DNA of 45,582 nucleotides, from positions 1-45,582 of the forward strand of contig PXRZ01000069.1 in the NCBI GenBank assembly GCA_003022945.1, given 5' to 3'. Position 1 is the first letter of the stretch. Every line of letters starts with the position of its first letter. The notes beneath the pieces are model-generated. The model saw only the letters and a list, made by a program, of their open reading frames with translations, was not told the origin of the DNA and did no database searches. Below are positions 33-14,815 of the stretch, in pieces. The DNA comes from Halobacteriales archaeon QS_8_69_73 (GTDB lineage Archaea; Halobacteriota; Halobacteria; Halobacteriales; Haloarculaceae). Made by a program: the position numbers and the translations under genes.

Positions 33-104
33 GGGCTCGTAGATCAGCGGCAGATCGCTTCCTTCGCAAGGAAGAGGCCCCGGGTTCAAATCCCGGCGAG
101 TCCA
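33..104 (+). tRNA. tRNA-Ala (anticodon CGC), integration target
   Basis: A full cloverleaf can be drawn. The acceptor stem pairs 33-39 with 97-103 (one G-U pair), a five-pair anticodon stem encloses the loop TTCGCAA (anticodon CGC, reading GCG alanine codons), and the T arm is CCGGG/CCCGG around TTCAAAT. A104 is the discriminator base and CCA is not encoded. The last 14 bases (91-104) are repeated exactly at 12148-12161, so the 3' end doubles as an attachment site and the intact tRNA was regenerated on the left side of the element. Confidence 0.93.
91..104 (+). other. attL core inside the tRNA-Ala 3' end
   Basis: TCCCGGCGAGTCCA at 91-104 is identical to 12148-12161 and differs by one base from 12347-12360. 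It covers half of the T stem plus the acceptor 3' strand, the usual crossover region for haloarchaeal tyrosine integrases. The left boundary of the integrative element is inferred to lie here. Confidence 0.8.
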
Positions 105-338: not shown

Positions 339-1274
339 TTACAAATTCGAAACTCTTGGTTCAGATTCGTCCTGGAAGTCATCCATCGTCTCTACCCCCC
401 ACTCACTCAACTCGGTACATTGGTCAGCCGTCAATTCGGTGATCTTCCCCGGAATCTGCTTCGCCCATTTTATGCGACACGCTTGCTTTTCCGCGAGCCG
501 TGCCCACGTCAGCTCACTCCCCAAATTGTCCTGTGATTCCTTCAACAAATCAAATATCTCTTCGTTTTGCTCTTTCGACGAAGTGGATATATACAACTCA
601 ACACAGAACTCGGGACCTTGGTGAAACACCCATCCAAAACTGACCCCTGATTTTCCAGCGCTGAATGTCAGATAATTTTGAGGGCCCGGCTTCAGTTTGC
701 TCCAGCGTGGCCTTTGCTCCGAGTACGCTTCAACCAATTCACCGAAGAAGTTCCTATAGCTTTGTTCTGTTTCCGTGAGCGAGTCACCACCACCGAGTTC
801 CCGTTCCCATTCATTGGGTTCGACTACGACTTCGAACTCGAATCCACGTCTCTCAGATCCATCAATGCTCACTACTCTCGGTTTGATAGCAAAGAACTTC
901 GCATCTTTTGGCCCACTTTCGTTTAACCATTCGAGCACACTTCGGTGCTCCGGTCGAAATTCCTCAGCCAACCATATTGAGAAACCTGCATTCTTGCCGG
1001 ATGAATACGTTAGCAGTTTCCCGAGGTGGTCGTGGTCTGTCTTATTGTACTGGTTCTCGATGACGATCGTTTCCCCGGTGTTCATCTCCCGAGCAACAAT
1101 ATCTGAAGAAAAGTCTTCGACTGATTCTTCTGCGCGAGCATCCTCAATCTCGATTCCCAACGCAGACCCTAACAATTCGATGTTTTCGGTCAACCAGCGG
1201 GTGAAATCTCTCTCTTCGTTCTGCCACACGGATCGAAGGTTATGCTCTTGAATCTCAGCGATGTTTCGGTTCAT
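339..1274 (-). CDS. DUF4268-type protein with PD-(D/E)XK-like N-terminal part
   Basis: This 311-residue protein has an N-terminal region (about 55-100) with FSSDIVAR followed by IVIENQ and a HDHLGKLLTY segment. That is the D...(E)xQ arrangement of restriction-endonuclease-like folds, in which the usual Lys is Gln. The C-terminal half (about 165-280: SYRNFFGELVEAYSE, PQNYLTFSAGKSG) matches the DUF4268 pattern as I know it. The start at 1274 is preferred over GTG 1292 because a TATA-like ATATTTAAAG at 1297-1306 sits about 27 bases before ATG 1274, fitting a leaderless transcript. It lies inside the tRNA-Ala element, so a defence or DNA-processing role is plausible but unproven. Confidence 0.75.
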   Translation of the reverse strand: MNRNIAEIQEHNLRSVWQNEERDFTRWLTENIELLGSALGIEIEDARAEESVEDFSSDIVAREMNTGETIVIENQYNKTDHDHLGKLLTYSSGKNAGFSIWLAEEFRPEHRSVLEWLNESGPKDAKFFAIKPRVVSIDGSERRGFEFEVVVEPNEWERELGGGDSLTETEQSYRNFFGELVEAYSEQRPRWSKLKPGPQNYLTFSAGKSGVSFGWVFHQGPEFCVELYISTSSKEQNEEIFDLLKESQDNLGSELTWARLAEKQACRIKWAKQIPGKITELTADQCTELSEWGVETMDDFQDESEPRVSNL

Positions 1275-1296
1275 AGGTTTGATTTCAGTCACAGTT

Positions 1297-3981: not shown

Positions 3982-4809
3982 GTGCAGAGTCAGGAGAGCG
4001 GCCTAATAGAACTCCGTGAGCTGTTGAAACAGCTCAATCAGATGTGGGAACGAAGCGGTGATCAGTTCGACAAAGATCCGTTGGTCGTCGATTGGACCGA
4101 GACAAGTCCTCAGGCCGGGCCGCTGCGGACGAATCGAGAGGAAAACTGGTCTCAATGGCTTGCTCATCTGATACGCGATTTATCAGGTGGGTACACAGCT
4201 GAACTGTTTGATCCTCATTTTGACCGTTCTCCGACGCACGTTCGCTGTGAGCGCGCGTTCCACGACGATGAACTCCATGACCGACGGGTAGATATCCTTG
4301 CTGAGTTTGCTAACCAAGGAATGACGATTGAGGTGAAGACTGGTGACGAACACTACGAGAAAACGCCACAGACTGCGTATCTAACCGAGAAACATCACCA
4401 GCGAGAACTTGACTGGACACATTACCTCCTCCTCCAACAAGACAAGCGAACTGCGTTACAGAGCGTATTTAGCGGCCAGATATCGAATCCGGAAAATAAT
4501 CGACCGGTGATCAGTGCAAGTGGGCCTGAAGAATGCGATATCATCGTAGTATACTGGTCAGACGTCGCTCAGGGATTACGCAGAACACTCCTTGCCGGCG
4601 TTGAATCCAGCACACACTGGACGACAAGTCCCTATCTGTTCACAACACTGATTGAGGAGCAAATTCTTCAGTTCTACGCGCTCCCATCATTGGAGAATTA
4701 TCAAGCTACATCTCTCGGCATTTCCGACATCGAACGACTGCAATCAATCGCCCCCGAAGGCCAGATCGCGCACCTCGCCACCGTACTGGAGGAAACCATC
4801 CATGGATGA
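3982..4809 (+). CDS. PD-(D/E)XK-family nuclease-like protein
   Basis: This 275-residue protein has an N-terminal helical part, then (about 92-125) DRRVDILAEF and MTIEVKTGDEHYEKTPQTAY. This is the D-x(n)-E-x-K core of the restriction-endonuclease-like superfamily with both acidic residues and the Lys present. The rest is a mixed domain with no second motif I recognise. GTG 3982 is the only plausible start: the frame is open back to a stop near 3932 but holds no ATG. The stop overlaps the start of the next gene (ATG 4802), so the two are probably translated together as a two-protein unit. A role in DNA restriction is inferred, not shown. Confidence 0.7.
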   Translation: MQSQESGLIELRELLKQLNQMWERSGDQFDKDPLVVDWTETSPQAGPLRTNREENWSQWLAHLIRDLSGGYTAELFDPHFDRSPTHVRCERAFHDDELHDRRVDILAEFANQGMTIEVKTGDEHYEKTPQTAYLTEKHHQRELDWTHYLLLQQDKRTALQSVFSGQISNPENNRPVISASGPEECDIIVVYWSDVAQGLRRTLLAGVESSTHWTTSPYLFTTLIEEQILQFYALPSLENYQATSLGISDIERLQSIAPEGQIAHLATVLEETIHG

Positions 4810-5443: not shown

Positions 5444-6592
5444 TCAAGCGTTGTAAGCAGCTAAATCTGATTGAACTCCCTTGTCTTCTTGGAATTGTTC
5501 TATTGCTTCATTTATTGCTTCAATCTCAAGAAGGAATTCGATGCTCTTCTTATCATATTCTTCAGCGATGTCATCATAGATTGATTTCGGGTTCTGTTTT
5601 CTTGACTTGAACCGATAGGACGTACTTCCATCATCAATTTGATCATTTGATGATTTGATTTCAGTTATCACTCTAAGGTGGCCCCACAATTCAAGAACTC
5701 TATCTGTTAGTTGAGATGCCTTGTGGTCCGAGTCAGAACCATGGAGCGTGTCACTGTAGTAGTTCTGGAGTTCTTGTCGTGAGAAATGAGTATTTGGTAC
5801 TTCGCTCTCTCTACGGTTACTTGCCATCACGGTAACCGTATGTTCAAGAAGAAGACTGTGATGAGAATCATAGAAGAAATCCGGTAAGACGTGAGGAGAA
5901 TCCATGATCTCTCTACCGTTATCTAGGACTCGTCCAAGCTCATCATTATGTCGCCTGTTTTGGCCGGGCGTACTTGGAAAATCTGTGTAAACCTCAATCT
6001 TCTCGCCTTCAGTTCCAGATATACGCCACACGTAGAATTCCTCTGGATCTCCATTCGATTCTTCATATTGTCCTATCGCAGTGGCGGTATCATTAGCCCT
6101 CGACGGTTCAATGGCTATGGCTGTTTGAATACGATCATTTCGGAAATCGAGACCGATGTCATCTGAAAGAGTACTGTTATTGGTTCTCACTCCTTCTAAC
6201 ATCTCAATCGCATCGCTGATTCCGGTTTCGGGACGTTTTCTTAACGGAAGTATGATTATCAAAATGATTGATCCGTCTGTTTGGTTTCCAATGAGAACAT
6301 CTACAGAATCTACATCAAGCGTTCGAAGAGGAAACAGTTTCTTGAATTCCCAGTTGGTCACTCGTTCTATTGGTCCATTTCTAAGAAATGCCGCCATGAG
6401 AGTTGTACGAAGCTTCATTTTTTGTTGTGCCTCGTCCCTCCTATTATTATACCGTTCTCCAGCTCGTTCTATTGCATCTTCGCTTTCATTTAGTTCTTCA
6501 AATTTGTCTTCCTTTATATGTCTGTAGTTGTCATTGGCCACGTTTTCCAGATAGTAATCCAGGATCTCCAGTTCCTCCTCGATGAAACTCAT
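5444..6592 (-). CDS. Unknown protein, second gene of an AT-rich two-gene operon
   Basis: This 382-residue protein starts with ATG 6592, overlapping the stop of the upstream gene by four bases (ATGA). The N-terminus (1-75) is strongly helical and charged, possibly a coiled coil (EEELEILDYYLENV, ERAGERYNNRRDEAQQKMK). The middle has alternating hydrophobic strands (VDSVDVLIG, SIILIIILPL) and a later strand pair (FYVWRISGTEGEKIEVYTDF), a layout that could hide a nuclease-like core although no clear E-x-K is visible. The C-terminus is again helical (EFLLEIEAINEAIEQFQED). Its base composition is much more AT-rich than the chromosome, pointing to transfer. I cannot name the family. Confidence 0.7.
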   Translation of the reverse strand: MSFIEEELEILDYYLENVANDNYRHIKEDKFEELNESEDAIERAGERYNNRRDEAQQKMKLRTTLMAAFLRNGPIERVTNWEFKKLFPLRTLDVDSVDVLIGNQTDGSIILIIILPLRKRPETGISDAIEMLEGVRTNNSTLSDDIGLDFRNDRIQTAIAIEPSRANDTATAIGQYEESNGDPEEFYVWRISGTEGEKIEVYTDFPSTPGQNRRHNDELGRVLDNGREIMDSPHVLPDFFYDSHHSLLLEHTVTVMASNRRESEVPNTHFSRQELQNYYSDTLHGSDSDHKASQLTDRVLELWGHLRVITEIKSSNDQIDDGSTSYRFKSRKQNPKSIYDDIAEEYDKKSIEFLLEIEAINEAIEQFQEDKGVQSDLAAYNA

Positions 6593-7698
6593 GATGATAT
6601 GGCAGGATAATCGATGGATTCGGGTTCAGCATACTCGTCAACAGTTGACTGAACTATCTCAAAGAATCGGAAAAATGCACCAATATCACGTTCATCCTTA
6701 GGAAAGACTCGGATTGCTTCCTCATTTGCTCGAACATTAAAAAACAGGTTATTCTCCTGATCATATATTTTGCTGGAGAAATAGACTGACCCTCTTTCAG
6801 TGTTGGTGTCGATAAGCGCATAATCACTATCCTGAAGACTTGTCTGGAGGGGATCAATATCCTCGTACTGCAGATTTAGATCGATTCTAGCGGGTGTAGA
6901 CTGCGAGACGACATTCCCTTCCGTGATTTCAATATCTTCAACACGAGTACTATCATACGCCTCTTTGATATCTAAACATTTATTAATACATTCATCAAGA
7001 TATTCAAACACCAGACTGAGTGACCCACTTTTCAGTTTGAATATCCCCTCTTTATCAACTCGGAAATTCAATTCAGTGGGTATGTTGATCTCAAGAATAT
7101 GAGGGAGAACCCCATATCTGTCTTCGACTTCCCTCAGGGTTCGCAGACCATCGTCACCATAGTAATTGATTGTTCTTTCCTCATCGGGCCTTTCGGCCGC
7201 AGGAATTTCTGTTCCTTCTGTTCTCTTCGCAATGAACTCGGTGACTTTTGCTGATTCATTTTGTTCAGCAATTTGCTCGGTTACTTCCTTCAAAATTCGA
7301 GGACTAATATAGAGGTAGTGCACACCCTTGATAGTCCGTAATAATGGCACAATAGCGTCATTGATTTCTTCTGTCTTTCGTTGATCTGTGTAGAAGAAGA
7401 AAAGTTGCTGATCTTCATCAAAGTGTAGATATGCTTCAGCACGGTAGTCCTGAGAGTATTGATGGCCAATTTTTTTGATTGCTCCATACTCTTGATCAAC
7501 ACTCCAACCGCGCCCCTCTAACTGACCCTCGAACTCCGCTCTGGTGAGTTCGGTGATTCCTGAAATAATATAGAGATCATTACTAGATAATCCACTGTAG
7601 TTTCGGGTGAGATAGCGATTGAACTCAGGCCCGTCTTCGAATTCATCAGAAGGAATCTCGAAGACTTCCATTATAGAAAAGTCATGTAGAACTCTCAT
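6589..7698 (-). CDS. Unknown protein, first gene of an AT-rich two-gene operon
   Basis: This 369-residue acidic soluble protein (ATG 7698) has a stretch from 40 to 150 that reads as alternating strands and helices (DLYIISGITELTRAEFEGQL, EAYLHFDEDQQLFFFYTDQR, GVHYLYISPRILKEV). That could be a sensor or ligand-binding domain. The second half has a helix around 230-260 and more strands (RGSVYFSSKIYDQENNLFFN). There are no Walker motifs, zinc ligands or membrane segments. Its stop overlaps the start of the next gene by four bases, so the pair is almost certainly co-translated. Function is unknown; the setting beside nuclease genes in an integrative element makes a defence module plausible. Confidence 0.7.
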   Translation of the reverse strand: MRVLHDFSIMEVFEIPSDEFEDGPEFNRYLTRNYSGLSSNDLYIISGITELTRAEFEGQLEGRGWSVDQEYGAIKKIGHQYSQDYRAEAYLHFDEDQQLFFFYTDQRKTEEINDAIVPLLRTIKGVHYLYISPRILKEVTEQIAEQNESAKVTEFIAKRTEGTEIPAAERPDEERTINYYGDDGLRTLREVEDRYGVLPHILEINIPTELNFRVDKEGIFKLKSGSLSLVFEYLDECINKCLDIKEAYDSTRVEDIEITEGNVVSQSTPARIDLNLQYEDIDPLQTSLQDSDYALIDTNTERGSVYFSSKIYDQENNLFFNVRANEEAIRVFPKDERDIGAFFRFFEIVQSTVDEYAEPESIDYPAISS

Positions 7699-7976
7699 AA
7701 GTTAACCGGATTAGGCGAAACTAAAATCACGGTTAGTAGGATTGAGATCGTTTATCGAGGTGGTGTGGACACCGAGGCTATCCGTGTCAACACCTGTAAG
7801 CGCAGTGCGTTAGAGCTGCGATGACCCTATTGATGTCTTTCGAGAGATTGCTTTTCAAAATATTTTGCGTGTTCAGTTCAGAGTAGAATTCTCTACAATT
7901 CCGGCAAGGTCATTATTTTTGAAATCGATGAGCCACACAAGAGAGTATAAGTGATCAAAGATATATCTCACAAAAA
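7699..7976. promoter_or_regulatory. Divergent intergenic region
   Basis: This 278-base AT-rich gap separates two divergently transcribed units. On the plus side GTATAAGT at 7945-7952 is centred 28 bases before GTG 7977 and fixes that start as leaderless. On the minus side only weak T-rich sequence precedes ATG 7698. No other gene is seen. Confidence 0.5.
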
Positions 7977-9467
7977 GTGAGCGGGTCTGAGGACCAGTGT
8001 GGATATGTGGAGGACGAAGAAAACCTCCCGGATGGTATCCCACCTATCTCTTGTGGAGAACCAACGTGGGACCATCGAGACCGGTGTCTATGGCATGCAG
8101 AGACCTCTGAGAAACCGATAGATATCCTCGCAAGGCGATGGGAAGAAGCACCAACTCGAATCGATGGTGTATATTTTGAAGATCTTCAACTAAGAGATCG
8201 GTTAGATTTTAGCGATATGACATTGTATGCTGGAAATTTTGAGCAATCTGATTTAACCGAAGCAAATTTTCAAGATGCGCAACTAGACTTTTCCAATTTT
8301 ACAAGCGCTACTCTTCGGTCAGCGAAATTCAATACTGAGCAGACAAGTCTCATCGACGTTCAATTTGAGGACGCTAAATGTGTGGATACACGCTTCCAGC
8401 ATGCGATACTACACAATTCCAAATTTCAGTCTGCGAATCTTAGTTCGGCTAAGTTACAACATTCAGATGCAGCTGACGCCATTTTTGTCAGTTCTAAATT
8501 GCATGATTCGAAACTAATTTGTGCAAATTTTCGTAGCGCTGAATTAGATTTAGCTGAATTACATGATGCCGATTGTGGCAAAGCGGTCTTTGAGAGCGCT
8601 TCATTAAAACAGGCCGATCTCCGTGGAGCATCATTCGTTGATGCTGATCTGTTTGATGCGGACATCCGAGATGCTGAGGTAGATCACGAGACTGAGTTTG
8701 GATCACAAATTTGTAGAGAATTTTCTGCTGATAGGGATGCAGAGTGGGATTGGGTGAAGTCTTGGACCAACCTTCCAGAGGAACTCTGTATTGAACGTGG
8801 ACCAAACTCCGAACCAACCGGTGATTCAGACGGTAATCCAGACGTCGAATATATTGATTCATATGAATCAGATAGGGAGAAGTATATGAATCAACGGAAA
8901 CGTAGACATCAAGTAATCGGAGCGATCAGCCGTCTAATTAATAGAAATCCTTTCATGAGGGATAGTCAACAAAACACAACAGAACTCGAAAAATCTGAAG
9001 GAATTTATTTGGATATAAAACAATTATTTAGAGAAAACCCGGTACCGGAACAGCGACGTCAGTTCAATATCCGAGAAAAAGAAACTAAGCGGAAAATCTC
9101 TTATATAAAAGGCAGTTTCTCTTGGCTTCGGTGGAGTTCACTCCGCTGGAGTATGCAGTACGGTGAAAGCGCTAAACAGGTCATAATAGCCTCTCTTGGG
9201 ATTATTCTATTGTGCAGCTTATTGTACCCGATTTGGGGACTTCGATTTGGTTCTGGCGAAGCGATTCAATACAGTTTGTCTGGTGAGATTTCAGCCGATG
9301 CTATTCTTTCTGTTGTATTTTATAGTCTTCGCAGGTTGATTAGCCCGACAGATGGATCTGTGACCCCCATAGGTCCAAGTGAGTGGATTGCCCTCGGCGA
9401 AACGGCTATCGGTGCACTTCTAATCGCTGTATTAGCATTCGTGTTAGGTCGTAGGGCTACGACTTGA
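7977..9467 (+). CDS. Pentapeptide-repeat protein with C-terminal two-helix membrane domain
   Basis: This 496-residue protein has a short Cys/His-containing N-terminus (CGYVEDEE, CGEPTWDHRDRCLWH, which could bind a metal). About 75-235 is an array of pentapeptide repeats of the A(D/N)Lxx type (SDLTEANFQDAQLDFSNF), expected to form a right-handed quadrilateral beta-helix. A charged linker follows (240-385). The end has two hydrophobic helices (about 400-420 and 470-492) with a loop between, ending VLGRR. The helix-loop-helix layout and the ending resemble haloarchaeal pentapeptide/ion-channel fusions, but the loop (SPTDGSVTPIG) lacks a T-x-G-Y-G selectivity filter. The GTG start is supported by a TATA-like box at 7945-7952. 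A membrane effector role is inference. Confidence 0.8.
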   Translation: MSGSEDQCGYVEDEENLPDGIPPISCGEPTWDHRDRCLWHAETSEKPIDILARRWEEAPTRIDGVYFEDLQLRDRLDFSDMTLYAGNFEQSDLTEANFQDAQLDFSNFTSATLRSAKFNTEQTSLIDVQFEDAKCVDTRFQHAILHNSKFQSANLSSAKLQHSDAADAIFVSSKLHDSKLICANFRSAELDLAELHDADCGKAVFESASLKQADLRGASFVDADLFDADIRDAEVDHETEFGSQICREFSADRDAEWDWVKSWTNLPEELCIERGPNSEPTGDSDGNPDVEYIDSYESDREKYMNQRKRRHQVIGAISRLINRNPFMRDSQQNTTELEKSEGIYLDIKQLFRENPVPEQRRQFNIREKETKRKISYIKGSFSWLRWSSLRWSMQYGESAKQVIIASLGIILLCSLLYPIWGLRFGSGEAIQYSLSGEISADAILSVVFYSLRRLISPTDGSVTPIGPSEWIALGETAIGALLIAVLAFVLGRRATT

Positions 9468-9525: not shown

Positions 9526-10563
9526 CTACGCCAAACACGCTAACCAACCGTCATACTTTGTCAAGGTATTTACGGCGCTGTTCCATTTTTTGCGCTCAGT
9601 ATGGCGGTCGTAGTGTTTATGTAAAGTATCTGATGATACGTTCGCGCGGGCACTTACGACCGGTTCTGGAATATCCGCAGAAAGCCAATTAGTGATTGCT
9701 CCTCGCCTGAGAGCGTGTGGCGATCGTGATGACGGACATTTCGACGCACCGGTTCGAACCCCCGCAGCATCACACTCGCTGATCACTCGATCGTGCGGAC
9801 ATTCGTCTGAGACCATACATGGCGTCGTCACGGAGTAAATGTAATTTTGAATCGTCGTCACGTGGAGTCGCCCCTCCGAAGACGCAAGTAGTGGTTTCCG
9901 TCCATACTCGTCTTCCGCGTCTGGTCGTTGATCAGCCAGCCAGTCATCCAACAGTGCATAAGTCTCATTGTTCAGTGCTATGAATCGTTCTCCGCCCTGT
10001 TTGTTCTTGATCGGCGTGCCTGTCTCCGGACGGTGTTGGACTTCAAGAGACATCTCTTGAGGGTCATAGTCACTCACGTCAAGCGTTCTGACCCCTCCAC
10101 GTCGTAGAAGAGCTCGCCACATCAGTTGGAAACAGAGATGACGTGCTGATGCATACTCGTAGGACGGCAGATAATCCAGAATCCCCTCAGCTACGTCAGC
10201 ATCCACCATCACGTCCTTCGTCTCATCTTCTTCGGACATGCTCGGTGAGACAACTTTGGCGTGGAGGTCGGCTGGCACAGCCTCAATAGACGTACACCAT
10301 CGGATGAACACCCGAAGGGTGTCCATCTGCGTTTTCTCGCTGATGGGCGCAAGGTCACCATCCGCACGCCGCCATAGCCTGAAGCGATGCAGGTCACGGC
10401 CGGATAGCTTGTTCATGTTGGTGATGTCCTGTTCGTCACACTAGCGGGTGAAGTGTCTGAGTCGGGACTTATGCCCGTATTGAGAGCGTTTCGAGAGTTC
10501 GCTCTCTCTGTCTTGGAGATACAATTCGACTGCGCGTTCGGGATTAATCGGTTCTAGCGACAT
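9526..10563 (-). pseudogene. Tyrosine recombinase/integrase 2, in-frame amber stop
   Basis: The reading frame from ATG 10563 runs 345 codons to 9526 with one stop, TAG at 10441-10443 (codon 41), where FTR-x-CDEQDI would be expected to carry Trp. The rest is a normal haloarchaeal integrase: LHRFRLWRRADGD (N-terminal SAM-like domain), a degenerate first-Arg region (LLRRGGVRTLDVSDYD), VQHRPETGTPIKNKQGGERF, the H-x-x-R box SPHALRRG and KHYDRHTERKKW with the nucleophile Tyr. It resembles integrase 1 in several segments. TGG to TAG is a single transition. An internal ATG at 10416 would give a protein lacking part of the arm-binding region. Confidence 0.8.
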
Positions 10564-10729: not shown

Positions 10730-11992
10730 ATGCAAAAAGACGGTATTCGAGATCTATCCGAGATGTTTGCGCTACTGCAGGAAGTACAGGGGACAGGAAC
10801 GAATATTTTCGAGATCCTCGATATCGAAGACCACGAAAAGCGATTGACGCGCTTCCTTGCCTGGTTACTGGACCCGGACGGTTCTCATAATGCCCGTTCG
10901 GCTTTTCTTGATGTGTTCTTGAACTGTTTCGATATCCAAGTCAGCACTCCGGACAATGTGAAGTACCTCGAAGTCTTGAATAGTACGGAACACGGGCAGG
11001 TTGAGATCGACCTCGTCATCGAAACCGATACTCAGATCATTGGAGTTAAAGTCAAGACCACCCACACCGAATCACAGACTAAATTCGAGAAGGAGGCGGT
11101 GGTGCTCAGAGAGCACGCGCAGGAGCGCCAGGAGAAAGCGGCCGAGATGCTGTATCTCCCTCACCTTGGTTCGGAAATGAAGAGCGCCCATTATGCCGAA
11201 CATATTGCCACTTGGCATCAGGTGATTGAGGCCCTGCAGGAATGCCGTGGTGAGTTGGAAGCGGGACATGATATTGCGCTATTCGATGACTTCATCACAA
11301 ACATCAACAAGCACGTTATTCGTCAGCAAGTTTCGTTTTCGAAAGAATCGGAACTATATCTCAAGTACCGGGATTACTTGGAAGACTTCGAGATAGATAT
11401 CAACGCGGACAGCTACCAGAACGATCGAAAAGACATTTACAATCATCTCTGGCAGTGGTTTGAGAAGACCTACGATACCGACCGTTGGGGCGGTCAGCTT
11501 GATCGGTCTAGAAAGTTTAGCAAGAATACAAGATACATCCGTCTCTACAAAAATGATTGGCACCTAACCGAGAATAGCAGTGGACGACCGGCGTTCACGT
11601 TGGAAATCCAGGGAATGGAGAAACGGCTGAGGTGGTACGATGACAATGAGGGCGATGATGCGTACCGGCCACCCGAACCGCATTTCGAAATGACAGTAGC
11701 CCTCAATGACAACACGGAATCACAGAAGCGGCGAGAGGCGTACCGGGAGTATCTTGCAGACGCCGACCGAGAGGCTCTCCGCGACGGTGGGTTTTGGGAC
11801 GTACGCGAACGTCTGAACGAAGTGAATTCTGAAGCACCGTACAATAAGTACCACATGTACTCGAAAATCATCCACATCGACTTTGCAGATCCAAACAAGG
11901 TGGTAACAGAGCTGAAGACTGGTTTGCGAACCTTTGTGGCTTTGGAGGAGTCAATTGATGAATTCAGTAAAGATTGGCGGAATTCTCATTAG
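10730..11992 (+). CDS. PD-(D/E)XK nuclease superfamily protein (PDDEXK_4-like), catalytic Glu replaced
   Basis: This 420-residue protein has the N-terminal layout of PDDEXK_4 proteins: NIFEILDIEDHEKRLTRFLA followed by WLLDPDGSHN, then VEIDLVIETDTQIIGVKVKT. The family normally has D-x(n)-E-x-K at this point; here D is present but the expected Glu is Lys (K-V-K, codon AAA). GAA to AAA is one transition, so the enzyme may be inactive. The C-terminal half carries family-like strands (RYIRLYKNDWHLTENSS, FTLEIQGMEKRLRWYDD) and a helical end. It lies between integrase 2 and the right attachment site and is the last full gene of the element. Confidence 0.75.
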   Translation: MQKDGIRDLSEMFALLQEVQGTGTNIFEILDIEDHEKRLTRFLAWLLDPDGSHNARSAFLDVFLNCFDIQVSTPDNVKYLEVLNSTEHGQVEIDLVIETDTQIIGVKVKTTHTESQTKFEKEAVVLREHAQERQEKAAEMLYLPHLGSEMKSAHYAEHIATWHQVIEALQECRGELEAGHDIALFDDFITNINKHVIRQQVSFSKESELYLKYRDYLEDFEIDINADSYQNDRKDIYNHLWQWFEKTYDTDRWGGQLDRSRKFSKNTRYIRLYKNDWHLTENSSGRPAFTLEIQGMEKRLRWYDDNEGDDAYRPPEPHFEMTVALNDNTESQKRREAYREYLADADREALRDGGFWDVRERLNEVNSEAPYNKYHMYSKIIHIDFADPNKVVTELKTGLRTFVALEESIDEFSKDWRNSH

Positions 11993-12161
11993 TCGTGTTG
12001 CTGTATATCTCTGGCACCAGCACGCTGATCGTACCAGTTTTTGAGAAATTCGACAATGTCCGCGGTGTCTGTACTCTCCTTCGACTCTGATGGGAACCGC
12101 CAGACAGCACGGGGATCAAATGGATTCTTTGAAACGGTGTAACGGATTCCCGGCGAGTCCA
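11989..12161 (-). CDS. Short minus-strand frame ending in the element's right end
   Basis: A minus frame enters the element across the att core (DSPGIRYTVSKNPFDPRAVW) and ends at 11989, giving about 50 residues that look protein-like (ADIVEFLKNWYDQRAGAR). No start codon exists between the core and this segment; the longer open frame to 12318 runs through palindromic non-coding DNA. In a circular form of the element the same frame would continue into 105-258. It may be a truncated gene or a chance open frame. Confidence 0.3.
12148..12161 (+). other. attR core
   Basis: Exact 14-base copy of the tRNA-Ala 3' end (91-104). Sequence to its right is GC-rich and palindromic, unlike the AT-richer element to its left, which supports this as the right boundary of an insert of about 12.06 kb. 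Confidence 0.8.
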
Positions 12162-12400
12162 CTTCCTTCGCTCGCTGCACTCGTTCGTCAGCGGACTCGC
12201 CGACCGTTCCGCGAGCGGAGCGAGCGGAACCTCGGGAGACGAGTAGCGCGAGTCTCCCGGTGTTCGCGAACGCCTTCGGCGTTCGCTCAGTCCCGAGAGA
12301 CGCCGTGGCGTCTCTCAACCCTCGCGCCGTCTCCGACGGCGCTCAGTCCCGACGAGTCCATTTCTGAACGCAGTGAAGAAATGGACGGAGCCATGACGCG
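12162..12400. repeat. Palindrome-rich block with second, imperfect att copy
   Basis: There is no gene. Several inverted repeats follow each other, for example GCGAACGCC/GGCGTTCGC with a 3-base loop, GAGAGACGCC/GGCGTCTCTC, CGGGAGAC/GTCTCCCG and CCATTTC/GAAATGG. At 12347-12360 TCCCGACGAGTCCA repeats the tRNA end with one mismatch, suggesting an older integration scar. The block resembles those at 21.96-22.44 kb and 33.5-34.35 kb. Confidence 0.6.
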
Positions 12401-12461
12401 CGCCACTACCGGCTCGGGTGTGGGAGTGGTCGGAGAAGCTAGAAAATCGGTTCTCGCTGGG

Positions 12462-12712
12462 TCAACGGTGTTCGTCCATCCACCGACACCACTCATCGAA
12501 ATCGTCGGCACCGCATTGTTCTGCAATCGACCGGAGCGTACCGATTTTGATACGTTGTGTAGCGGGACCGTCACAGTCCGAACTTCGCCGGTATCGGGAT
12601 TTCTGTACTTGAGAACGACGTGGCCACCGCGTTGGCGGTCGCGCTCGTAGCCGAAACTCCCCAGCACCTTCGTAACTTCCCGTCCGGAGAAATCCCGGCT
12701 CGGCGTCGTCAC
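12462..12712 (-). pseudogene. hicA: HicA-type toxin (mRNA interferase), frameshifted
   Basis: The first frame gives DFSGREVTKVLGSFGYERDR then QRGGHVVLKYRNPD and TVTVPLHN, the HicA double-stranded-RNA-binding fold with its G-x-H motif. The C-terminus GTLRSIAEQCGADDFDEWCR, typical of HicA, is in another frame. The break is at about 12550-12560; one missing base would restore LHN-(R)IKIGTLRS. The gene starts with GTG 12712, overlapping the end of hicB (GTGA), so toxin follows antitoxin. With the shift, the product would lose the last helix and gain a long unrelated tail. It lies outside the integrative element. Confidence 0.8.
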
Positions 12713-12912
12713 GAGTCAAACCAGGGCGCATCCGGTTCGGGAGCGTCGGAAAGCTCTTCTCGGACCTCTACGGCCAGTTCGACCGCCTCGTCGAGGTTTT
12801 CGAGCGCCTCTCGACGGGTCTCTCCCTGACTGGCGACGGCAGTTTCGACGTCCACAGCCGACCATCCACCGTCATCCTCCTCAACGAGGCGGATTTCGCG
12901 GCCCGTGCTCAT
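12709..12912 (-). CDS. hicB: HicB-type antitoxin
   Basis: This 67-residue protein starts MSTGREIRLVEEDDGGWSAV and has the short HicB fold: a strand, then DVETAVASQGETRREALENL leading into a helix (DEAVELAVEVREEL). It ends DAPEPDAPWFDS, as haloarchaeal HicB proteins commonly do. ATG 12912 is chosen; an upstream ATG at 12939 would add nine unlikely residues. It is translated just before hicA with a GTGA overlap. HicB neutralises HicA and usually represses its own operon. This one lacks an obvious extra DNA-binding domain, as in other small archaeal HicBs. Confidence 0.8.
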   Translation of the reverse strand: MSTGREIRLVEEDDGGWSAVDVETAVASQGETRREALENLDEAVELAVEVREELSDAPEPDAPWFDS

Positions 12913-12949
12913 ACATGTCAGTACGAGTGGCGATGGCATAAGAATCCGG

Positions 12950-13207
12950 TCACGATTCGTCTTCTGTCGAGATGGGTCGCATCGCCAGCCAGAGGCCGCG
13001 AACGGTGTCCGTGGTAGTATCGTAAACTCGTAGACCACATGTTGTTTCCACGAGCAACTCGCCCAGTGCCGACCCTGAGCCGACGGCCGCGTGGCTGGTT
13101 CGTCTTTTCTGGTCATTGCACTCCACGGACGAGCACGGAGTCGCCGACGCCGACCGGGACGACCCGGAGCGTTCGAGCCGCGACCGGGTGCCGCCTGCAA
13201 CAGTCAT
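12950..13207 (-). CDS. Possible small haloarchaeal protein, uncertain
   Basis: The last 45 codons of this minus frame look protein-like (LGELLVETTCGLRVYDTTTD, then RGLWLAMRP). The first 40 are low-quality Arg/Ser-rich sequence, while another frame over 13113-13170 gives RTLRVVPVGVGDSVLVRG. It may be one small gene with a frameshift near 13110. It diverges from nadE, with the starts close together. I do not recognise it. Confidence 0.3.
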   Translation of the reverse strand: MTVAGGTRSRLERSGSSRSASATPCSSVECNDQKRRTSHAAVGSGSALGELLVETTCGLRVYDTTTDTVRGLWLAMRPISTEDES

Positions 13208-13233
13208 AATATCGTGCGGGCGATATGTACGGT

Positions 13234-14815
13234 ATGCAGCGGGACCTGCCGCCCGTCGCGGTCGTCCAACACGACCCGACGGTGGGCGACGTCGCGGGCA
13301 ACCGCGAGGCGATCCTCGAGCGGTTCAACTGGGCCGCCGACGCCGGAGCGACGGTCGTCGTCACGCCGGAACTGGCGCTCCTGGGCTACCCGCCGCGGGA
13401 CCTCCTCCACCGGGAGGCGGTGCTGGACGCCGAACGGGAGGCGCTGTCGGCCCTCCGGCGGGCCACCGCCGACGGGCCGGCGCGCCAAGCGGCTGCTCCC
13501 GACGTACGACGTCTTCGACGAGCACCGCTACTTCTCGTCCGGGGAGTCGCCGACGACGGTCGAAATCGGCGGCGCGACGATCGGGCTCACGGTCTGTGAG
13601 GACGCCTGGTACGACCAGGCGGTGACGGGCCAGCGGCGCCACGCGGCCAACCCGATCGCGCCGTACGAGGGCGTCGACGTGCTCCTGAACCTGTCGGCGA
13701 GCCCGTTCCACGTCGGCAAGCCGGCCGACCGGATCGAGCGGTTCGGCGGCCACGCGGCGGCAATCGACGCGCCGGTGGTGTTCGCCAACCAGGTCGGCGG
13801 CAACGACGACATCCTGTTCGACGGCGTCTCGTTCGTCGTCGACCCCTCGGGCGAGGTCACCGCGATGGGGGCGCTCGGCGAGGCCGACGTCGTCGTCGAG
13901 CGGTGGGACGGCGACGACGCGACGCCGGCGCTCCCGAAGAGGGAGGGGGTCGGGGGGCTCAGGCGGATGCTGGCCGTCGGGGTTCGCGACTACCTCGACA
14001 AGACCGGCTTCGAGGACGTCGTCATCGGGCTGTCGGGCGGAATCGACTCGTCGGTCGCCGCAGCTATCGCCGTCGACGCGGTCGGCCCGAGACACGTCTA
14101 CGGCGTGACGCTGCCGAGTCACGTCACCGCCGAGGCAAACCGCAGCGATGCCGAGCGGGTGGCCCGAGGCCTCGGTATCGAGTTCGGCGAGCGGGACATC
14201 GAGGAGGTCGCCGCCGACTCCGTCGCGGCCATCGACGGGTTGACCGACGGCGACGTCGCCGGGCTCACCCGCGAGAACGTCCAGGCCCGCGCCCGGGGGC
14301 TGCTCCTGATGGGGGTGGCCAACGACCGTGGAGCGCTCGTGTTGACGCCGGACAACAAAAGCGAAGCGGCGGTCGGTTACTGCACGCTGTACGGCGACGC
14401 GGTCGGCGCGCTGGCACCGCTGGGCGACTGCACGAAACGGCGGGTGTACGCCCTCGCCCGCGCGTTCAACGACGACCCGCCGGTCGGCGACGACGCCCCG
14501 ATTCCGCGATCCGTGCTGGAAAAAGAGCCGACGGCGGAGCTGGCCGAGGGCCAGACCGACGCCGACGAGATCCCGCCGTACGAGGTGATCGACCCGGTGG
14601 TGCGGGCGTACGTCGGCGGAAAGCGCCGGGTCGACGAAATCGTCGCGACGACCGGCGCCGACCGCGAGCAGGTCGAGACGGTGATCCGGCGGCTGACCCG
14701 CTCGGAGTTCAAACGCGAGCAGTCGCCGCCGGCGCTCCGCGTCACGACAAAGGCCTTCGACAGCGGGTGGCGCTACCCGATCGCGGCGTCCTACGAGCCG
14801 CTGTTCGGGGAGTGA
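13234..14815 (+). pseudogene. nadE: Glutamine-dependent NAD+ synthetase with internal deletion and frameshift
   Basis: The frame from ATG 13234 encodes VAVVQHDPTVGDVAGNREAI and TPELALLGYPPRDLL (nitrilase-domain Glu). It then shifts at about 13480-13490 into the frame of RAKRLLPTYDVFDEHRYF (Lys) and VCEDAWYD (Cys). The C-terminal synthetase domain is intact: GLSGGIDSSVAAAIAVDAVG (ATP-binding SGGIDS loop), TPDNKSEAAVGYCTLYGD, LGDCTKRRVYALA. At the break about 25-30 residues of the nitrilase domain are missing compared with the usual family sequence, so this is more than a one-base error. The enzyme converts deamido-NAD to NAD using glutamine and is normally essential. A TATA-like AATAT at about 13209 suits a leaderless start at 13234. 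Confidence 0.85.

Follow-up and report, generated by a model that had tools for sequence, protein, structure and literature searches.

A haloarchaeal gene pair in which loss of a putative nuclease motif coincides with an adjoining membrane gene, a candidate mobile genetic-conflict module

Genes A and B lie in a 45,582-nucleotide stretch of the genome of Halobacteriales archaeon QS_8_69_73 (GenBank assembly GCA_003022945.1, contig PXRZ01000069.1), which was analyzed as a whole and is called the window here. The two genes are a conserved, undescribed pair, and neither matches a family of known function. Across the relatives of the pair, loss of an E-x-K motif from B coincides with an adjoining membrane gene, c2 or c4, in every locus that could be judged. 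In the window this gene is c4. We read c4-A-B as a mobile module of genetic conflict, whose role is most likely antiviral or the exclusion of viruses, and put the probability of this reading at about 0.5. The original prediction, made from the sequence alone, was of an undescribed two-gene system consisting of two intact frames (369 and 382 residues) with a four-base ATGA overlap. Both frames proved to be open as described and the pair is conserved, but here a third gene belongs to the unit, which should be widened from A-B to window 5444-9467 to include c4. As a whole, that earlier reading is partly supported and the observation itself is confirmed, while an antiviral function of A-B is at most plausible.

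The search covered 391 genomes of the class Halobacteria, and every listed A locus was fetched (loci and genomes are cited by our L and G numbers). Relatives of A were found in 59 of the 391 genomes, the window's own included. In the first set of 39 loci, which contains the window, A was followed in all 39 by a frame of the BLASTP-linked B family, which lay on A's strand at a distance of −25 to +6 bp. The second set comprised 27 loci, 25 with a near-complete A and each of these with B adjoining; B was short in L114 (176 residues, near a contig end) and in pieces in L117 and L126, and the other two loci held A remnants of 127 and 113 residues and no B. A itself was short in L059 (295 residues) and split near its start in L077. 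Counting all haloarchaeal loci with a near-complete A, B came next in 64 of 64, which excludes a lack of conserved pairing in other genomes. Because A recurs in this many genomes and B pairs with it in both sets, chance open frames are excluded as well. One weak A match from a search of the phylum, L181, was dropped, since it looks like a galactose-1-phosphate uridylyltransferase, and five weak B matches in frames of 928-1478 residues were taken as winged-helix or chance similarity; the one of these that was read, L050, lies in a large helicase. A possible, very diverged pair was seen in the same genus (L182:5653-7885, genome G036), with a weak A relative of 410 residues followed by a 331-residue protein carrying PDF...VEVK.

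At cut-off, neither protein matched Pfam, NCBIfam, or any PADLOC model, in agreement with the earlier remark that no motif could be named. The sole match of either protein up to E = 1 was that of A to DUF3533 (E = 0.15), and up to the same limit window A and B had none in PADLOC. Sequence searches of the PDB gave at best E = 0.15 for A and E = 0.0052 for B, the latter to a SNARE motif in the helical part. Single A and B members had scattered weak Pfam matches, the strongest being PSF1_C for one A (E = 2e-4) and DUF7654 for one B (E = 0.004), and PADLOC on 39 B members returned just two weak single matches (E = 0.012 and 0.043). In PHROGs, A matched phrog_24372, a family of unknown function (E = 7e-99), window B had two weak matches only (E = 0.046 and 0.1), and c4, viral B, and viral c2 each fell in families of unknown function. 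Clear homology of the window proteins to replication or housekeeping families was not found in Pfam, PADLOC, NCBIfam, or PHROGs. Single-protein scans of viral contigs found nothing, and the A-B/c4 unit was not described in the open-licence literature searched, a scope that most subscription papers and all bioRxiv preprints fall outside.

Many B relatives carry E-P-L or D-P-L, then D, and then E-C-K or E-A-K, and at the same columns window B has F, D, and I-I-L. Models of A and B were built with AlphaFold2 from 39-row alignments. The B model (mean predicted local distance difference test, pLDDT, 88.8) has the helical ends around a strand core that had been anticipated, including a C-terminal helix of 46 residues; its core consists of strands 81-86, 99-103, and 108-114, a helix at 121-137, and a strand at 155-161, with Asp98 preceding strand 2 and columns 113-115 ending strand 3. 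At the family level, the predicted structure has the PD-(D/E)XK layout of three strands, a helix, and a strand, the D falling at strand 2 and the E-x-K at strand 3. We do not call window B a nuclease; it looks like a nuclease fold without its catalytic residues, and a direct nuclease role was rejected for want of E-x-K. When the window was compared with three relatives, silent differences per site were saturated (0.76-0.89) and amino-acid-changing differences per site were 0.08-0.16 for A, 0.13-0.22 for B, and 0.18-0.29 for c4, which indicates that purifying selection acts on all three genes. Since amino-acid changes are few against saturated silent ones, the degenerate B is maintained.

The state of B was compared with the presence of c2 or c4, which were counted when within 400 bp upstream of A. 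Among the 64 loci, none of the 29 with E-x-K and none of the three with E-x-E had either gene, while the 31 degenerate loci, the window among them, comprised 22 with c2, eight with c4, and one without; the single locus with a broken B had c2. In L079, the one degenerate locus without either gene, the contig stops 64 bases beyond A; a different contig of this genome carries a c4 relative at its start. No relative of c2 or c4 occurred anywhere in the fetched stretches of E-x-K loci. The rule that a degenerate B goes with c2 or c4 was formulated from the first 39 loci (12 E-x-K and two E-x-E without either gene; degenerate, 16 with c2, eight with c4, and one without) before the further 25 were fetched, and these gave 17 E-x-K and one E-x-E locus without either gene, and six degenerate and one broken with c2. 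Two plasmid loci also had a degenerate B with c4. In archaea outside the class, all six loci were E-x-K (read by eye) and had no c2 or c4 in the fetched stretch, one contig being only 4.3 kb long; this occurrence of E-x-K in outer archaea points to it as the older state. On the A tree, the c4 rows formed one clade (100/99) among E-x-K rows, and the c2 rows needed two changes, one of them forced by well-supported forks. In the enlarged tree set, either trait needed three changes. The first tree was made without L115-L117 (copies of L074 in one genome), and the enlarged one also without nine near-identical rows (L080, L081, L124-L126, L128, L129, L132, and L136).

The two membrane genes differ in size and orientation. 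Relatives of c4 are about 500 residues long and lie upstream of A in divergent orientation, with an intergenic gap of 81-279 bp, and they have pentapeptide repeats and, at the C terminus, two hydrophobic helices. The window's c4 also has a Cys/His-containing N terminus and a charged linker, and its sequence does not show the usual K+ selectivity signature. The c2 protein has about 180 residues and usually one hydrophobic helix, and its gene lies upstream of A on A's strand. Some match to c4 was found in 182 of 391 genomes, and the eight best places, the window included, adjoin A-B; the ninth-best was a contig start in genome G286. For c2, some match was found in 93 of 361 genomes with a model built from 15 rows. 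The 21 places better than 1e-40 all lay beside A (next, 5e-25), and of the 18 genomes with these places, 13 had supplied the model and a fourteenth shares its provirus with a model row.

Evidence of mobility came from the virus Harhisp1 (MW344767), which carries c2, A, and a degenerate B beside its rep gene, and a weak c4 relative (E = 1.5e-21) further off. According to PMC7911831, Harhisp1 was found in Haloarcula hispanica as a provirus at tRNA-Ala that had been induced. Locus L071 is the Harhisp1 provirus itself (100% identity), and the provirus L078 resembles L071/Harhisp1 in pieces that are mostly 87-97% identical in DNA, two short ones being 70-74%. One slot of L071 (7725-11988) holds B, A, c2, a CopG/ParE pair, and a 194-residue frame, and the frames picked in the corresponding slot of L078 (8371-12362) are only c4, A, and B; the two A proteins are 29% identical. 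Since the same slot is occupied by c2-A-B in one of two related proviruses and by exactly c4-A-B in the other, c4-A-B forms a discrete cassette that moves as a unit. In L067 (E-x-E) and L086 (E-x-K), A-B occurs with relatives of at least two Harhisp1 structural or NTPase proteins. With these two loci and the shared slot, every form is represented by at least one pleolipovirus-like element. A proteins of the E-A-K type are nearly identical across genera in unlike surroundings (L123-L137, and plasmid pHLAC01 as L211), which we take as recent spread. The E-x-K form on pHLAC01 of Halorubrum lacusprofundi (HLAC_RS16615/HLAC_RS16610) is, by position, the same stretch as L137. These near-identical pairs in unlike neighborhoods suggest that A-B with E-x-K suffices alone.

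Two recurrent arrangements were also seen. Genome G305 has four c2-A copies (L074, L115, L116, and L117) with identical match scores and similar upstream genes, one of them with a broken B, and we take them for a multicopy mobile element. In L080, L081, L082, and L084, an E-x-K A-B pair lies in a cluster with two conserved proteins of about 586 and 423 residues and a large methyltransferase-like protein, which we take, with the PADLOC list, to be of the DUF1156 type.

The neighborhood was compared by PADLOC (threshold 1e-8) using 100 neighbor frames of at least 200 residues from 20 loci, without A, B, c2, and c4, and the first 100 of 158 control frames; these 100 cover random stretches in 13 of those 20 genomes. 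Neighbors matched 167 models and controls 21, these counts being of models, many of them overlapping, rather than of proteins, and mechanical frame picking left a few spurious frames in both sets. The 25 of the 167 neighbor models that were listed include DrmMI, PglX, type IIG, DRT, Gabija helicase, and PDC-S11, and the control models include a type I restriction enzyme, IetA, and viperin. Resolvases, integrases, Cdc6, and McrBC also occur among the neighbors.

The A model (mean pLDDT 89.8) consists of repeated beta-alpha-beta4-alpha units. Its first PDB matches by Foldseek were RnlA, RdgC, S-adenosylmethionine decarboxylase, and the human inner kinetochore complex (chain L), with TBP at rank 18; the better E-values ranged from 3e-4 to 1e-2, and whole-chain TM-scores were low. 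Against viral models, the first matches of A include a 137-residue protein without a name (E = 4e-6) and phage RdgC, RnlA-like, and TBP proteins. The repeated units and the structural match, both on the predicted model, are those of a TBP-like fold, an assignment that concerns fold and not family; the RnlA and RdgC profiles of Pfam matched neither window A nor 39 A relatives. The earlier description of A as sensor-like keeps this predicted fold as its sole basis. The true start of A is probably Met10 at window 7671, giving 360 residues, because the longest reading begins there in nine aligned relatives and in the annotated Haloarcula sp. JP-L23 plasmid gene.

If c4-A-B is a conflict module, its action may be pictured as follows. 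Protein A, with its TBP-like domains, would recognize a nucleic-acid or protein sign of the invader. Because the TBP-like domain of RNase HIII is described as binding DNA-RNA hybrids (PMC3710099), nucleic acid is a fair guess as the target. B may use its helical ends to bind A and its winged helix to bind DNA. B itself would be the effector in the older form, a nuclease of the PD-(D/E)XK type, as the conserved residues and predicted topology suggest, and in the window lineage the preserved pseudo-nuclease would pass the signal of A to c4, a pentapeptide-repeat membrane protein that could damage or depolarize the membrane. More tentatively, we consider it possible, though short of probable, that the unit is an archaeal immune chassis spread by the viruses, in which a TBP-like recognition protein works with a nuclease that became a dead relay at least twice, a different membrane effector being recruited each time, and that pleolipoviruses exchange its versions as allelic cassettes to exclude rivals. 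If the reading as a conflict module is right, archaea gain a modular conflict system without a family of known function, an effector has been replaced within one system with the old nuclease kept as scaffold, and an archaeal virus carries the system. Direct tests have named sources in Harhisp1 of Haloarcula hispanica (c2 form) and pHLAC01 of Halorubrum lacusprofundi (E-x-K form), two genetically workable species.

Several points weigh against this reading. The function of c4-A-B and every step of its action are inferred from sequences and models. The coupling of E-x-K loss with a membrane gene rests on two or three independent switches; because the tree allows no more, the independent-pairs test (two pairs, p =.5) was not significant. 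The 25 further loci included three copies of L074 and no c4 locus, and their rows fell in clades already seen. Another frame with a hydrophobic segment lies within 700 bp in nine of the 29 E-x-K loci, none of these frames belonging to a recurring cluster. The hydrophobic segment was under threshold in three of 23 c2 proteins, and none of the six Pfam matches of c4 was to a channel family. For B, no PD-(D/E)XK profile matched in Pfam among 39 members and six further E-x-K relatives. No PDB match of its model reached 1e-3 (best, the Cdt1 C-terminal winged helix, E = 7e-3; MCM6 at rank 16, E = 0.36), and the best PD-(D/E)XK match, the Shedu nuclease domain, stood at rank 12 (E = 0.32). In hhalign, neither Mrr_cat (E = 0.05-0.4) nor one Shedu-type protein aligned significantly with B, and a control pair of accepted nuclease families went equally undetected. 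Two printed hhalign alignments, under this failed control, placed the D and E-x-K of B on the D and Q-x-K of Mrr. The hhalign profile had 23 rows, the earlier E-x-K profile was made without L126 and the degenerate one without L114 and L116, and L176, one of two identical outer rows, was unused. The neighborhood fits mobile defense islands but may be no more than the company that cargo genes keep. Finally, a replication gene directly adjoins B in both Harhisp1 and the related provirus, and a weak match to PSF1_C, a replication-related Pfam model, was seen for one of the 39 A relatives (E = 2e-4).

The alternative that survives best, unlikely as we consider it, is an addiction or toxin-antitoxin-like module serving element maintenance, in which c4 or c2 would be a toxin checked or repressed by A-B, with the winged helix of B acting on a shared promoter. 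The divergence of c4 from A across one short intergenic region in all eight c4 loci and the occurrence of A-B on a virus, plasmids, and integrated elements would suit it. However, c2 lies on the strand of A and is not divergent, and since none of the 29 E-x-K forms has either membrane gene, A and B are not solely restrainers.

Still less likely is a helper of integrating elements in replication, recombination, or partition, with A as an RdgC- or CENP-like DNA-binding protein and B as its partner. Besides the weak PSF1_C match and the RdgC and CENP-L folds resembling A, this explanation can draw on the Orc1-type rep gene after B in Harhisp1 and the related provirus, on relatives of the Harhisp1 rep protein, which a scan of 77 loci located in 11 (two of these, L071 and L172, are the same provirus), and on three Cdc6-lid proteins among the 100 neighbors. 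However, such a rep gene is missing from the vicinity of A-B in the majority of the scanned loci, near-identical E-A-K pairs sit in unlike surroundings, the RdgC profile does not match, and nuclease loss with membrane gain is left unexplained. Least probable is that chance put the membrane genes beside A-B and two clades then kept them, with no relation to the catalytic loss of B, while the pair does something else: the tree offers only two independent pairs (p =.5), but no locus that could be judged breaks the association, c4-A-B is one exact provirus insert, the c4 and c2 genes adjoining A are the top-scoring members of larger families, and the degenerate B is conserved.

In the window, the pair lies inside a nuclease-rich integrated element, as had been noted, and its composition departs from that of the chromosome (GC 0.41-0.44, compared with about 0.7 beyond 13 kb). 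A search with the last 13 bases of tRNA-Ala, allowing one mismatch at most (0.24 chance matches expected), gave three matches: besides the tRNA, there was a perfect copy at 12149 and one with a single mismatch at 12348. Because the tRNA 3′ end recurs where GC climbs from about 0.5 to over 0.6, A-B probably sit in a 12-kb tRNA-integrated element (Table 1). The one-mismatch copy (12348-12360), just past the probable attachment (att) site, may reflect an older or tandem integration, or chance.

Table 1. Positions of features in the window (residue numbers refer to the 369-residue A and the 382-residue B)
Feature	Position	Strand	Description
tRNA-Ala	33..104	+	3′ end (91-104) is the probable left att site
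Gene B	5444..6592	-	382 residues; N-terminal helices, PD-(D/E)XK-like core, winged helix, long C-terminal helix
B residues 245-328	5609..5860	-	Predicted winged helix (model and Foldseek)
B residues 81-161	6110..6352	-	PD-(D/E)XK-like core, Asp98 kept (alignments and model)
B residues 113-115	6248..6256	-	Ile-Ile-Leu at the columns of the relatives' Glu-x-Lys; catalytic residues lost
ATGA overlap	6589..6592	-	Stop of A and start of B
Gene A	6589..7698	-	369 residues; predicted tandem TBP-like domains, candidate sensor
A residues 252-352	6643..6945	-	Last predicted TBP-like unit (predicted secondary structure)
A residues 42-122	7333..7575	-	First predicted TBP-like beta-alpha-beta4-alpha unit (predicted secondary structure and Foldseek)
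Divergent intergenic region	7699..7976		278 bp between A and c4
Gene c4	7977..9467	+	496 residues; divergent from A; candidate membrane effector
Copy of tRNA-Ala 3′ end	12148..12161	+	14 bp; probable right att site, near GC rise

Other frames of the element include tyrosine integrases, broken or shortened, at 1582-2723 and 9526-10416 (both minus strand), and candidate defense proteins at its two ends, a DUF4268 protein (339-1292, minus strand; PDC-S11, E = 1e-96) and a PDDEXK_4 nuclease (10730-11992, plus strand; PDC-S26, E = 2e-15). A possible further nuclease is a 275-residue frame (3982-4809, plus strand) with a PD-(D/E)XK-looking stretch, VDILAEFANQGMTIEVKTG, and weak PADLOC matches to DruK/HEC-02B (E about 0.015). 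Just outside the element, frames at 12287-13200 (minus strand) resemble, by their signature, a HicA/HicB toxin-antitoxin pair. We take the gene at 13091-14815 (plus strand) to be NAD synthetase-like; its N-terminal part is apparently in another frame (13225-13599), which points to a pseudogene or an assembly error.

Among known systems, RNase LS/RnlA of the RnlAB antiphage toxin-antitoxin provided the best Foldseek PDB match of A (6y2p, E = 3.3e-4), and TBP-like domains are described in some members of the RnlA antiphage family (PMC3710099). However, the TM-score was 0.21, A has no RnlA profile match, and it is paired here with a winged-helix protein of PD-(D/E)XK-like fold. RdgC, CENP-L/CENP-N, and TBP share the TBP-like architecture predicted for A, RdgC being among the best PDB and phage matches, and Chl4/Iml3, the orthologs of CENP-N/CENP-L, are reported to be similar to RdgC and TBP (PMC4080450). 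None of these proteins nevertheless has a sequence match to A, and superposition on solved RdgC was poor (TM-score at most 0.37). The nuclease domain of Shedu is a weak structural match of B, and active-looking B relatives have the D...E-x-K order, but B has no family-level match to Shedu or other PD-(D/E)XK defense nucleases, adds a winged helix and long terminal helices, and in the window copy lacks the catalytic residues. The repeat region of c4 weakly matched the Hailong effector HalA (NCBIfam NF051894, E = 0.0069, 15.6 bits), far under the 250-bit cut-off. CBASS, Pycsar, and Thoeris combine a constant core with alternative nuclease or membrane effectors. Apart from the lack of a PADLOC match for window A and B, and of any but two weak ones among 39 B members, the c4-A-B module would differ from these systems in that the effector was apparently once part of the core protein itself and was then kept as a pseudo-nuclease.

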